From: an archaeon
GTDB taxonomy: Archaea; Micrarchaeota; Micrarchaeia; Anstonellales; Bilamarchaeaceae
Direction of reading: 5' to 3'
DNA length: 33,835 nucleotides
NCBI GenBank assembly: GCA_020052735.1
Contig: JAGVON010000051.1
Coordinates: 1 to 33,835, forward strand
Below, piece by piece: positions 17,855 through 24,951 of this stretch. Position numbers and translations under genes: made by a program. The notes under the pieces were generated by a model, which worked only from the letters and a program-made list of their open reading frames with translations, was not told the DNA's origin and ran no database searches. How positions within the stretch are numbered: position 1 is the stretch's first letter; the number at the start of each line of letters is the position of its first letter.

Positions 17855-18355
17855 CTACTGCCTCGGCTGCTCATACACGATGATGTCAAAGTAGCCCAGC
17901 GAGGTTTTTCCGTCCTCCTTCATGTAGGATACGGCCCTGCGCATCCGGTATGCGCTCTGGGAATCTATTTCATCCTCGGGCGTACCCCAGGTGCAGACGC
18001 GCGTTACGCCGCCCCTGTTGTTCACCTCGTCAAAATAGACGGACACCAGGTAGCCGGAGCCGAACGCATCCGCAGGGCCGGCGCCATCAAGCCCATCAAG
18101 CAGCAGGCTGCAATCATCATCAACCAGCGAATAGTTTACGTGCGCATCCCTCCAGCCGGCGGTAATCCCGGGGGGCACGGGGGTGAGCATGGTTTCGGAT
18201 ATGCGGAACGCCTCCCTCGCGAGCATGTCGTGCGCCTGGTCAAAGGAGCCGTTTATGCCGTTCCAATAGGAGAAAAGGGCTATGGCGGTGAGTATGAAGA
18301 TGGTGCCCCCGACAATCGCATCAAAGCTGAAATACTGCCCTTTGAGGAAGCTCAT
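17855..18355 (-). CDS. Type IV pilin-like secreted protein
   Basis: 166 residues. The N-terminus MSFLKGQYFSFDAIVGGTIF is a class III-like signal: a short basic leader (KGQ) followed by an uninterrupted hydrophobic helix with an acidic residue five positions after the cut site (Phe-Asp instead of the usual Glu). The remaining 130 residues are extracytoplasmic and contain a Cys pair (DDDCSLLL, TRVCTWG). It is the last gene of a five-gene operon and its ATG overlaps the upstream stop (ATGA). It is probably a minor pilin or pseudopilin subunit. The Glu-to-Asp change is unusual. Confidence 0.7.
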   Translation of the reverse strand: MSFLKGQYFSFDAIVGGTIFILTAIALFSYWNGINGSFDQAHDMLAREAFRISETMLTPVPPGITAGWRDAHVNYSLVDDDCSLLLDGLDGAGPADAFGSGYLVSVYFDEVNNRGGVTRVCTWGTPEDEIDSQSAYRMRRAVSYMKEDGKTSLGYFDIIVYEQPRQ

Positions 18356-18861
18356 TCTTCAACCACCCCGCAATCCACCCTTATGGTTGGAGTGCTTTCA
18401 TCAACCATGTTCGTGAACAGGAGATGGCCTCCGGCCTCCCCCACGTCTATGCTGACCGAGCCGCCTGGGGAGGGCTTGAAGCAGCCCCCGCTGCCCTGCT
18501 CATATTTTGCATATGGAATGGTATATAAGTAGGCGAACTCCGAGGTGGTGCCGTTCCACACCGTCTTTACGGTGGAGACGCCAGTATCCCCGTTCGTCTG
18601 GAAAATGAGGCTGTACGGCTTCCCGTCAACGTTCTGCGGGAAATAAAGGTCGTAGGTGAAGCCCTCCCCGCCCCGGTATGCAACAATCGCGGCGTACTGG
18701 AACTTGTACCCGAACTCGCGGAACATCTGGGATTCGCGGAGGGAAACCTCGCCCCTCTGCGTGAAGTATGTGAGCGTGTATGCCATGACTGCGATGAGCA
18801 GGAATACGCCTGCGTACACGAGGAACTCAAGCGCGACTTGCCCTTTACTGCTTCCCTTCAT
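18352..18861 (-). CDS. Class III signal peptide pilin-like protein
   Basis: 169 residues beginning MKGSSKGQVALEFLVYAGVF, a textbook archaeal class III signal (KGQ followed by xxxE, then a hydrophobic helix), cleaved before Gln by an EppA/PibD-type peptidase. The mature domain is a mostly beta, 130-residue extracellular part with a Cys pair (GGCFKPSPGG, RVDCGVVEE). ATG 18861 is preceded by GAGGT and fits the signal better than the in-frame TTG at 18867. It overlaps genes on both sides, showing translational coupling. Probably a pilin-type structural subunit. Confidence 0.82.
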   Translation of the reverse strand: MKGSSKGQVALEFLVYAGVFLLIAVMAYTLTYFTQRGEVSLRESQMFREFGYKFQYAAIVAYRGGEGFTYDLYFPQNVDGKPYSLIFQTNGDTGVSTVKTVWNGTTSEFAYLYTIPYAKYEQGSGGCFKPSPGGSVSIDVGEAGGHLLFTNMVDESTPTIRVDCGVVEE

Positions 18862-19303
18862 AATCAAACCTCACTACGCCCCCGTCGTTGTAGAAGCGGA
18901 TGGCCATGAGCCCCCTCTTGTCCGTAATCTTCTCATCCTGGTCGTCATCCGCGAGCTTGCCGAAATACGGATAGGTGACCTGCGTCTGCGCGCCGCCGGA
19001 CCGCAGGGTGAGCACGACTTCGTTGCCCGTGAAAGAAATCTCCTCCAGGCTGGACGGGAGATTTACAACAGCGACCTTGGAGGAGCCCTGCCCCTCAACC
19101 CAGACCTCGTTTATGGAATCCGACATGACACGCGCGGACGCGCTCGCCTGCACGCTGGCGAGGTCCTCAAAGCGCACCTGCGCCCCCACAAGGAGCAATA
19201 TGAGTATGGGCACGAGCAGCAGCATCACTAGCCCTACGGTTGCGAGCATCTCCACAGATGCCTGCCCTTTCAGGAATCTATTCTTCGCATGCTGCCCTTC
19301 CAT
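18845..19303 (-). CDS. Class III signal peptide pilin-like protein
   Basis: 152 residues with 'NRFLKGQASVEMLATVGLVM' near the start, again KGQ, then a Glu four residues on, then a long hydrophobic helix (LLLVPILILLLVGAQV). The rest is a small beta-rich external domain (about 100 residues). A GGGTG sits 5 nt before ATG 19303, inside the end of the upstream gene. The gene overlaps both neighbours. It is probably processed by the same prepilin peptidase as its neighbours and assembled with them. Confidence 0.82.
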   Translation of the reverse strand: MEGQHAKNRFLKGQASVEMLATVGLVMLLLVPILILLLVGAQVRFEDLASVQASASARVMSDSINEVWVEGQGSSKVAVVNLPSSLEEISFTGNEVVLTLRSGGAQTQVTYPYFGKLADDDQDEKITDKRGLMAIRFYNDGGVVRFDYEGKQ

Positions 19304-20936
19304 CGTTGCACCCTATGTTATCTTCGTCGTCGCTGTCCGTGACGCCGAGGTAATATTCCATCGCTTCGTCCGAGAGGGCGAAATGGCCCAGGTCGGAATT
19401 GGGGTTGCCGCACATCTGCGGGTCCTTGCATCCGGGCATGCCCCTTATCTTCTCCCCGGAAACATCATTGAAGAAATCCGTGTCCACGCGGCTGAGCCCG
19501 TCCAGCCCGGGGTTGTAGATGCCGCCCGCGTATTTCCCTATGAGGAATGTCTCTATCCCGTTCGCGCTGCTGTATTTGTATCCGTCCTTGAACATCCGCT
19601 GGAGGAAGGACGGCGCGGCCGGATTAACCATGTAATAGGAGCACCTGGCGAAGTCGCGGAGATTCTCCATGTCAAAGACCTCCACGTTGTCCCGCTTGTT
19701 GTCCGGGTCGTTGAGCACGTCCTCCGCGGAGTATTGGGCGATGAAGAGCATGCGCACTTCGTTGGGGGGGGCGCCGGGCTCGTGGTACCTGTACTTCCCG
19801 AGCATCTCATCATAGGCCTCATCTTCAAAATCTTCATATACCATGAATGGATGGGTTGTGTAGTCCGAGCCTCCCTCGTCTATGGACTCATCGCAGCCGC
19901 CTCCAGCCCGGGTTTCGCGCTGGACGGGGTTCAGGGTGTTGGACTCGTCCCCGCAGCTCCCGGGGTCTTCAGGCGCATCCAATAGGATGTAAGCCCCGAA
20001 GTTCTCCCAGCTGTCCACAAATTTTATGTCGGTATAATTGCCAACGAGTATCGTGCGCGGCGCATCCAGGGACGAAACACCGTCCGCGTCCTCCGTGAAT
20101 ACGGCGGGGCCGTAGAACCAGCCCTGCCCTTCGGAGCCGGTGCCTATGTTGTCCGGGTAAAGCTCCTCATGCACCTCGGCATAGAACTCGTGCAGCTCCT
20201 CTGGGGACATCTCCTCGTAGCCGCCAATTTCGGCCACGGGCGGATAAAGATAAACCCCTTTGTAGATGGTGAGGTTCTCCCTGCTTGCTGTGCCCCTCAG
20301 GCCCAGGCTCTCCCTCGCCACGAGCGGGTCCACCATCCCTTCCGCATCCACAATCCTGTTGAACTGGTATGTGCGGACTATCGCGGTGTCGGTCTGCAGG
20401 TCCTTCACATGCAGCTCAAGAGTGGCGTTGAAGGCGAAGCGGAGCGGGTGCCCCGTCTCGTTGAACGAAAGGTTGGAGAGCTCAAAGGACTGGACCTCAA
20501 AGCCCTGCGTTGCCATGGAATTGTTGAGCTGGTTGAGGAAGCCCTTGAAGCAATAGGTGCGGGATTCCTCCTCCGTGTATGCGAGCGGGAAGCCGTCCTC
20601 GTAATCCACTGGAAGCGAGGTGCAGTTCGCGATGAGGGAAAGGTACGCGGAGCGTATGTGCGAGAACTGGTCCGGGGATTCGCCCGCCTTCATGGGGAAG
20701 CGGATGGAATTGTTTGAGAGCCGGTAAAGGGAATAATGGGAGATTATGTCCGCATACCTGCCCATCCTTTCGGCGCTCACCTGGTCGGTGAGGGTGTTCA
20801 GCGTGGAGGCGCGGAACGCATCAGAATAAGTGAGCTCCGAGGCCTCTATGGCGCGCACCCACATGGTCGTGGACACGAGTATGTATGATAGGAGGATGAA
20901 GGAAATGAGCACGAAGAAGAATCCCTTTCTGCTCAT
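19278..20936 (-). CDS. Large secreted protein of the pilin-like operon
   Basis: 552 residues: a single N-terminal membrane helix (KGFFFVLISFILLSYILVST) after a two-residue-plus-Arg-Lys leader, then a helix 'DAFRASTLNTLTDQVSAERM' and about 480 extracellular residues with scattered Cys (NCTS, TYCFKG, PGSCGDE, GGCDES) and very acidic loops ('DSDDEDN'). N-linked sequons are frequent (NNS, NCT, NLS, NAT). The start ATG overlaps the upstream stop (ATGA). It resembles a minor pilin with a large head, an adhesin or tip protein, more than a typical pilin. I do not recognise a specific domain. Confidence 0.7.
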   Translation of the reverse strand: MSRKGFFFVLISFILLSYILVSTTMWVRAIEASELTYSDAFRASTLNTLTDQVSAERMGRYADIISHYSLYRLSNNSIRFPMKAGESPDQFSHIRSAYLSLIANCTSLPVDYEDGFPLAYTEEESRTYCFKGFLNQLNNSMATQGFEVQSFELSNLSFNETGHPLRFAFNATLELHVKDLQTDTAIVRTYQFNRIVDAEGMVDPLVARESLGLRGTASRENLTIYKGVYLYPPVAEIGGYEEMSPEELHEFYAEVHEELYPDNIGTGSEGQGWFYGPAVFTEDADGVSSLDAPRTILVGNYTDIKFVDSWENFGAYILLDAPEDPGSCGDESNTLNPVQRETRAGGGCDESIDEGGSDYTTHPFMVYEDFEDEAYDEMLGKYRYHEPGAPPNEVRMLFIAQYSAEDVLNDPDNKRDNVEVFDMENLRDFARCSYYMVNPAAPSFLQRMFKDGYKYSSANGIETFLIGKYAGGIYNPGLDGLSRVDTDFFNDVSGEKIRGMPGCKDPQMCGNPNSDLGHFALSDEAMEYYLGVTDSDDEDNIGCNDGRAACEE

Positions 20937-21514
20937 GTGAACACCGTCAATCTGACCAGCTTGAGCGCGTAGTCCCCCGCTTCGTATTCATATGGGAGCG
21001 GAAGGTCGCATACCGTTGAGTCGCCGTAGCACGTTATGTATCCGTAGGGGCTTTCCCCGATGTTTCTTTCATTTGTCGCAGCAAGGTAAAGGGCCTGGGC
21101 GGTGGCCTTGAGCTTGTGGTATTCCCTCTTGTGCTTGTTTTGCTGCGTGTCCGTATCCGTGGCGGTGCTATAAACCTCGGCCCATTCCGGCTCCCCGCCG
21201 GCGACGTAATCCGCCGTCTCCAGCTTGTAGCCGAACTGCTCCGGGACCATGCTGCCGGAATACTTGCGCGCGGCGTCCGGGCTGCCCTCTATGATGAGGT
21301 CAAGGTAGGTCTGCCCGGATGAGCCCTCCCCGTCGTACGTGGTGGTCATCAGCGCGACCAGCGTGTCCTTCGCAAGGTAATTCGCCTGCGTGAGCGTGGA
21401 ATAGTATGCGGAAGGGACCGTTGAGAAGAAAACGAGCGTGTAGAGGGCTGCGACCACTAGCGTAAATGCGACGAATGAGTCAAGCGAGAACACAAACGCC
21501 TTCCGGTACCTCAT
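20933..21514 (-). CDS. Pilin-like protein, first gene of the operon
   Basis: 193 residues beginning 'MRYRKAFVFSLDSFVAFTLV': a basic leader, then 'FSLDSFVAF', which matches 'FSFDAIVGG' of the last gene in the operon, then a hydrophobic helix to about residue 35. The rest is an extracellular alpha/beta domain with a Cys pair (YITCYGD, TVCDLP). ATG 21514 was selected over in-frame upstream codons because of this N-terminus and a TATA box (TTTATAAA) 28 nt upstream. It leads a tightly overlapping operon down to 17855. Confidence 0.7.
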   Translation of the reverse strand: MRYRKAFVFSLDSFVAFTLVVAALYTLVFFSTVPSAYYSTLTQANYLAKDTLVALMTTTYDGEGSSGQTYLDLIIEGSPDAARKYSGSMVPEQFGYKLETADYVAGGEPEWAEVYSTATDTDTQQNKHKREYHKLKATAQALYLAATNERNIGESPYGYITCYGDSTVCDLPLPYEYEAGDYALKLVRLTVFT

Positions 21515-21611: not shown

Positions 21612-21638
21612 ATATCCACATTCCCCTGGTGTGGATAT
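21612..21638. promoter_or_regulatory. Perfect 9-bp inverted repeat over the pgk start
   Basis: ATATCCACA (21612-21620) and TGTGGATAT (21630-21638) enclose a 9-nt loop and cover the Shine-Dalgarno and the ATG at 21637. It could be a DNA operator or a start-sequestering hairpin. A TATA-like AATAAAAAAA centred at about 21594 would place the transcript start near 21620, so part of the left arm may not be transcribed. Confidence 0.4.
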
Positions 21639-24021: not shown

Positions 24022-24951
24022 CTAGTATATCTGGAAGACGAAATCAAACAGTTTGTAGTCCCACGCGGGCCAGTCCGTGAGGTCCATCGCCATCGTGTCG
24101 TACATCTCGCCGTAGGGGTTGCCCTCGGAGCGCGCCCACTGCACGCCGTAGCTGTCCGTGGTGTCCATCCTTGCGACAATCCAGTATTTGCCCGCCGGGA
24201 GCGTGAGGTTCTGGAACTGCGCGAAATGCCAGCCCGGCTCGTGCCCGACCTCTGCGCCGTTTATGGAAGAGGAGGAGATTACTTCTCCGGGCTGGCCCCC
24301 GTTGTCCCGGGTTATCTCCACTATGACGGGTGCGCCGCAGGGGGCCTCCGTCGCGGAACGGAGGTAAAGCCCAATCCTGCGGATTGTGAAGGGGCGCGTC
24401 ATGTTGATTGACTGCGCCTGCCTCATGGAGTAGCTCACCGCGTCGTAGTAAAGGTGCATGCAATCGTAGCAGGCGCCGTAATAGCCGAGGGGCTGGGGAT
24501 GCACGGTGCGCTGGAGGAAGTTGTTCTCCAGGGAAAGGGGCGGCTCGGAATGGAGGAGGTCCGCGCTCTCCACGTACGCGCGGATGTTGTGGGGCGCGTC
24601 GTCCGCGTCCGTGTAATTGAAGGAGAATGTTTCCATGAGCCCGGGCTTGCTCACTATCCCGTCATAGAGCGCCCGGTCCGAATCAAAGATGCGGAGGCGG
24701 TACGCGGTAGGGGTGTACATCCCGTACCTCTGCACATGCACCATCACGGTGTAATTATCCCCTATGTATACGTTCTGCGGAAGGGTGGAGACGTCCTTTA
24801 TGAGCAGGTCATAGGAATAGTCCGGGGGCGCGGGCTGGGGCGGGGTTCCGCCCGCCTGTTGCGCGCATCCGGAAACGGAAATGAAGAGGAGCACAAGGAG
24901 AATGCAGGGAACTGAGAACTGGCAACTGGGAACCTGAATGGCGCGCCTCAT
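24022..24951 (-). CDS. Secreted lipoprotein, function unknown
   Basis: 309 residues. The signal peptide ends in a lipobox ('LLFISVSGC', Cys 29), then a Pro/Gln-rich linker. The external part has beta-sandwich-like segments: 'NVYIGDNYTVMVHVQRYGMY' and a C-terminal half with 'FTIRRIGLYLRSATEAPCGA', 'GGQPGEVISSSS' and 'LPAGKYWIVARM', which resembles carbohydrate-binding-type jelly-roll modules. Several N-glycosylation sequons are present. A TATA-like TTTTTTAACC is centred 25 nt before ATG 24951 (leaderless). The signal peptide is coded by AACTGG-like repeats. Ligand binding at the cell surface is inferred only from the fold pattern. Confidence 0.7.
   Translation of the reverse strand: MRRAIQVPSCQFSVPCILLVLLFISVSGCAQQAGGTPPQPAPPDYSYDLLIKDVSTLPQNVYIGDNYTVMVHVQRYGMYTPTAYRLRIFDSDRALYDGIVSKPGLMETFSFNYTDADDAPHNIRAYVESADLLHSEPPLSLENNFLQRTVHPQPLGYYGACYDCMHLYYDAVSYSMRQAQSINMTRPFTIRRIGLYLRSATEAPCGAPVIVEITRDNGGQPGEVISSSSINGAEVGHEPGWHFAQFQNLTLPAGKYWIVARMDTTDSYGVQWARSEGNPYGEMYDTMAMDLTDWPAWDYKLFDFVFQIY

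Follow-up and report, generated by a model that had tools for sequence, protein, structure and literature searches.

Five overlapping pilin-like genes conserved in Micrarchaeota as probable minor pilins of a type IV pilus with a candidate tip subunit

Minor pilin sets are already known in archaea, where they were placed near the base of the filament by Makarova et al. in analogy with the minor archaellins of the archaellum, and where ATPase/TadC modules can draw on common pilin sets (PMC4858521). It has also been proposed that a minor pilin which exceeds the others in size and lacks the acid at position 5 may identify the subunit with which a filament begins (PMC5207764). Within the Micrarchaeota, two type IV pili systems, one of them from a euryarchaeal group, were described for Mia14 (PMC5498576). 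Here, a set of five pilin-like genes was compared with these systems. The window, i.e., the whole stretch of DNA that was analyzed (33,835 nucleotides), belongs to a Micrarchaeota metagenome-assembled genome (1.09 Mb, 112 contigs, 88% complete), whose nearest named relatives are Candidatus Micrarchaeota and "ainarchaeum" bins. In agreement with the preliminary description of this DNA, five pilin-like open reading frames (ORFs; A to E) are present on the minus strand, running head-to-tail from 21514 to 17855 with overlaps of 4 (A/B), 26 (B/C), 23 (C/D), and 4 (D/E) bases (a slash in the leader marks the predicted junction):

20933..21514, minus strand: gene A, pilin-like, 193 aa, leader RKA/FVFSLDS with Asp at +6
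19278..20936, minus strand: gene B, pilin-like, 552 aa, leader RKG/FFFVLIS without acid at +5 or +6, large acidic sequon-rich head
18845..19303, minus strand: gene C, pilin-like, 152 aa, leader LKG/QASVE with Glu at +5
18352..18867, minus strand: gene D, pilin-like, 171 aa from a TTG start, leader SKG/QVALE with Glu at +5
17855..18355, minus strand: gene E, pilin-like, 166 aa, leader LKG/QYFSFD with Asp at +6, remote DUF7287 homologue

For gene A, a longer alternative GTG start at 21619 is possible and not conserved, and for gene D, an ATG two codons downstream of the TTG agrees better with the orthologues. The genes around A to E encode a DnaG-like Toprim protein, a MiaB-like radical SAM protein, PGK, and CorA, none of which has an evident link to pili, and a Pfam scan of the remaining ORFs of the window returned nothing relevant to pili. 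Neither T2SSE nor T2SSF domains were found on the contig that carries A to E, and the absence of secretion ATPase and platform genes near the module, as first noted, thus holds for the entire contig. Beside CorA, the window also encodes a genus-conserved protein of 309 aa with a lipoprotein-like cysteine (24022-24951; SVSGCAQQ), for which no Pfam match reached the cut-off.

All five proteins and nearly all of their orthologues have a short basic leader with a [KR][GA] junction, the predicted cleavage site, followed by a hydrophobic helix. Acid positions were counted from this junction in the leader of each orthologue. Counted in this way, an Asp is located at +6 in 61 readable orthologues of A and in 58 of E, a Glu at +5 in 63 orthologues of C and in 58 of D, and both +5 and +6 are without acid in all 74 readable orthologues of B; the exceptions are mostly miscalled starts or junctions. 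Only D matched the Pfam model PF04021 (Class_IIIsignal), with 17.2 bits and thus below the cut-off of 23.7, this model being weak and only 27 positions long. C (KGQASVE) and D (KGQVALE) are the two proteins with the standard KGQxxxE leader already recognized in the preliminary description, which had moreover taken the Asp of A and E as a variant of the usual Glu. The Asp is present in both leaders, yet its equivalence to the Glu at +5 did not stand: it lies one residue further in, so that a plain Glu-to-Asp swap at +5 is ruled out by the register. As an acid at +6 was also found outside the Micrarchaeota, namely the Glu in the leader RAQTFTLE of a haloarchaeal pilin-like protein, the +6 acid, judging from these leaders, probably characterizes a subunit class that is more widespread among archaea rather than being peculiar to this genome.

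The set was recovered well beyond the window, as had been called for in the preliminary description. A homologue of B was identified in 41 of the 43 genomes of the window's family, and the loci fetched from this family read A-B-C-D-E with constant order and direction, the incomplete ones ending at a contig edge. In one locus (L074), B is divided between two ORFs, and one genome without detected B (G025) retains E at a contig edge. Profiles built from the window's family recovered the A to E set in most other families sampled within the class, once with a changed order (C-D-E-A-B, L167); across 301 genomes, B was detected in 124 and E in 174. Because the order is kept across the window's family and most of the other families sampled, the five-gene set is not a product of chance; with the leaders conserved as well, chance ORFs were excluded. 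The homologues are thus conserved as a set and do not occur singly in unrelated contexts. In three further loci from distant families (L168 6502-12171, L170 2-3484, and L173 5050-9881), all adjoining ATPase/TadC genes, A or B either reaches a much greater size (up to 1,160 aa) or is split, a large protein then being encoded separately from the N-terminal pilin.

The prepilin peptidase and the pilus ATPase, whose location had been proposed as a check, were both found in the host genome: one clear copy of an A24-type prepilin peptidase is encoded on contig C37, and three ATPase/TadC loci on contigs C39, C69, and C72. Missing assembly machinery was thereby excluded, and the characterization of the module as lacking assembly genes is correct for the window's contig but not for the genome, nor for some distant relatives, in which such genes stand beside the module. 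Besides an ATPase and a 461-aa protein, the C39 locus encodes TadC1, TadC2, and a major pilin of the typical archaeal kind (KGQAAMEYLMTYGWAIL), with no minor pilin genes within it, whereas the C69 locus carries pilin-like genes of its own; the C72 locus has a single platform protein of 522 aa. An ATPase-TadC1-TadC2 cluster adjoins the module, or at least B or E, in eight distant loci, and the best match of this cluster was always the C39 locus. Within the window's family, a C39-type ATPase lies on the contig of the module in 10 of 34 genomes (at a distance of 16-31 kb in nine of them), compared to 0 of 18 for the C69 type and 0 of 30 for the C72 type, all of these counts ignoring shared descent. 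In single-contig genomes of other families, E and the ATPase are separated by 8.3 kb (G123) and 7.1 kb (G245). C39-type ATPases appear nearly universal, with matches in 92 of 96 good genomes at 1e-100, a threshold that also lets in C69-type copies.

Since the distant loci adjoin C39-type clusters, contig sharing is limited to this type, and the C39 locus combines a major pilin with a lack of minor pilins, the partner machine of A to E is very probably the C39-type system. That the module would work with the C69 or C72 machinery instead, or would be used by several machines, is in line with the report of pilin sets common to archaeal ATPase/TadC modules (PMC4858521) and with the E paralogue noted below; given that linkage was found to the C39 type only and that C69 has pilin-like genes of its own, we regard this as very unlikely. 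The C39 assignment itself has one exception that counts against it: in a 93% complete genome (G031, family f1), B and E were undetected, though a C39-type ATPase and the 461-aa protein are present.

The C69 locus (L047, G000:C69, 6680-12914) represents a second type IV pilus locus of the host genome. Apart from a 713-aa protein with a match to the carbohydrate-binding domain CBM_4_9, it encodes two major-type pilins with a genuine Asp at +5 (KGQAALDFLMTYGWAIL and KGQAALDFLITYGWALL), unlike the Asp at +6 of A and E. In three other genomes (G033:C59, G038:C61, and G021:C46), a diverged second paralogue of E is located a few kb from a C69-type ATPase, which suggests that the C69 system of some genomes may own a DUF7287-like subunit.

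Taking this together, we propose, with a probability of about 0.7, that A to E are minor pilins of a type IV pilus which, in Micrarchaeota, is assembled by the C39-type ATPase/TadC1/TadC2 system, and that they form a priming and tip complex with B as its adhesive tip. Following insertion into the membrane, the short basic leaders of the five proteins would be cut off by the A24-type prepilin peptidase of contig C37, and the subunits would assemble within the membrane into a priming complex, at which the filament would start and which would remain at its tip. B, which lacks the acid that would engage the N-terminus of a subunit ahead of it, would be the first subunit, its large, acidic, and probably glycosylated head would serve as the adhesive tip, and A, C, D, and E would link it to the shaft; the two acid registers (Glu5 and Asp6) may set the order of these four.

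The case for B as the first subunit rests on its being the largest of the five by far and the sole one without an acid at +5 or +6, the combination proposed for GspK-type tip pilins, namely a size above that of the partners and no acid at position 5 (PMC5207764). The description of one protein with an acidic, sequon-rich head was borne out for B: the head comprises 507 aa with a net charge of -53 and 9 Cys, and it contains 8 sequons compared to 3.4 expected on shuffling, a number reached in 1.3% of the shuffles. Together with an STT3/AglB-like gene in the host genome, this suggests that the head is a candidate for an exposed, glycosylated tip. In the predicted structure of B (pLDDT 87.4), a long helix and a helical region are combined with a meander of three strands and a large C-terminal part of mixed structure. 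No PDB fold matched B at E <= 0.001, and GspK was not among the matches when sequences of solved structures were searched; hence, B was compared with GspK but not classed as a member of this family. Sliding-clamp proteins (E 0.007 in the search of solved-structure sequences) were treated as chance matches.

An alternative placement of A to E at the base or along the shaft, where they would anchor or decorate the filament, agrees with the position near the base assigned to archaeal minor pilins by analogy with minor archaellins (PMC4858521), which counts against the tip. The acid-less B suits a first subunit and its large, acidic, sequon-rich head an exposed position, and we consider such a placement unlikely. 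The five-subunit plan and the GspK-like features of B (PMC5207764) would suit T2SS and Com pili as well, so that the genes could also form a short pseudopilus of the type II secretion or competence type, which would transport proteins or DNA over the envelope in place of a long adhesive pilus. With a typical archaeal major pilin in the C39 locus and no secretin or DNA-uptake genes seen in the neighborhood of the module, this is quite improbable. The original interpretation as a minor pilin set with an adhesin-like tip is thus retained as the best reading, supported as regards the set and its partner, whereas we infer the position and function of the tip.

A role in pili is further supported by E, because it is a remote homologue of DUF7287 and DUF7287-like proteins adjoin TadC in haloarchaea. 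Against the DUF7287 profile (PF23958), E scored 16.3 bits, below the curated cut-off of 27, and 15 of 30 members matched weakly, at E <= 0.1 (best 6.3e-5). In profile-profile comparison with a haloarchaeal DUF7287-like protein, 125 columns were aligned with a probability of 64.5 and a P-value of 6.3e-5, far ahead of the other haloarchaeal proteins, and the acid lines up, as does a C-terminal Arg-Arg pair. On these alignments, E is classified as a remote homologue and not as a clear member. Its structure was predicted with confidence (pLDDT 89.7) as a long N-terminal helix with four main strands, and no PDB fold matched at E <= 0.001. As neither B nor E has a significant PDB match, membership in a solved minor-pilin fold is not established, which counts against the minor-pilin and tip reading. 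The best PDB fold hits for B and E (dehydratase reactivase and ribosomal proteins) had low TM-scores and were treated as spurious, and the matches among solved-structure sequences to CutA1 for E (E 0.8) and to two proteins for D (near 0.8) as chance.

The haloarchaeal loci were reached via a haloarchaeal sequence that served as probe only. On a Halobaculum halophilum plasmid and on pHME505 of Haloferax mediterranei, five pilin-like genes, putatively for DUF7287 and its neighbors, come after a TadC gene and, in Halobaculum, also after an annotated ATPase; for DUF7285-7288, no papers were found. Judged by its alignment with E, the first product is DUF7287-like, and no other product aligned with any subunit from Micrarchaeota along the greater part of its sequence; the second is the protein with Glu at +6, and the third (about 320 aa) has no acid. 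No convincing homology was detected between A-D and the pilins of this set, which counts against the minor-pilin reading.

Micrarchaeota are small archaea, some of which at least rely on other cells, and pili would be a plausible means of attachment to these. With the present data, a widespread minor-pilin set is defined and linked to one of the cell's three pilus machines, and B becomes a concrete candidate for a tip adhesin. As the subunits fall into three fixed groups (acid-less, Glu5, and Asp6), mutation could be used to test whether the acid register takes part in ordering them, for which Haloferax is a possible host, as a DUF7287 protein and an adjacent +6-acid subunit occur there. A far-reaching extension would be that a conserved five-subunit tip complex primes archaeal pili, with the leader register setting the stacking (acid-less first, Asp6 and Glu5 in defined later layers), that this heteromeric ordering code is older than the divergence of haloarchaea from Micrarchaeota, and that the complex holds partner cells in Micrarchaeota; this is speculative and, in our estimate, doubtful. 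No prior description of the five-gene set or the +6 acid class was found in a non-exhaustive literature search.

Compared with the known systems, A to E resemble GspHIJK and FimU-PilVWX of bacterial T2SS and type IV pili (T4P) in comprising few pilins with a large one that lacks the acid at position 5 (PMC5207764). They differ in the absence of any sequence or fold match, in the Asp6 of two subunits, and in gene order: GspK-type genes come last in their operon and B second, which counts against the tip reading. The haloarchaeal set shares with A to E the five consecutive pilin-like genes, a DUF7287-like protein that aligns with E along its length, one subunit with a +6 acid, and another (the third) without acid. 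Unlike the window's module, it lies directly downstream of TadC, its gene order and leader classes differ, and homologues of A-D are not detectable in it. The Mia14 account reports type IV pili together with a small number of prepilin peptidases from this phylum, as observed here, and a five-gene minor pilin set and its leader classes are not described in the consulted part (PMC5498576). Type IV pili of Micrarchaeota as such had therefore been reported, and relative to that part of the account, the five-gene set is a new and well-conserved addition.
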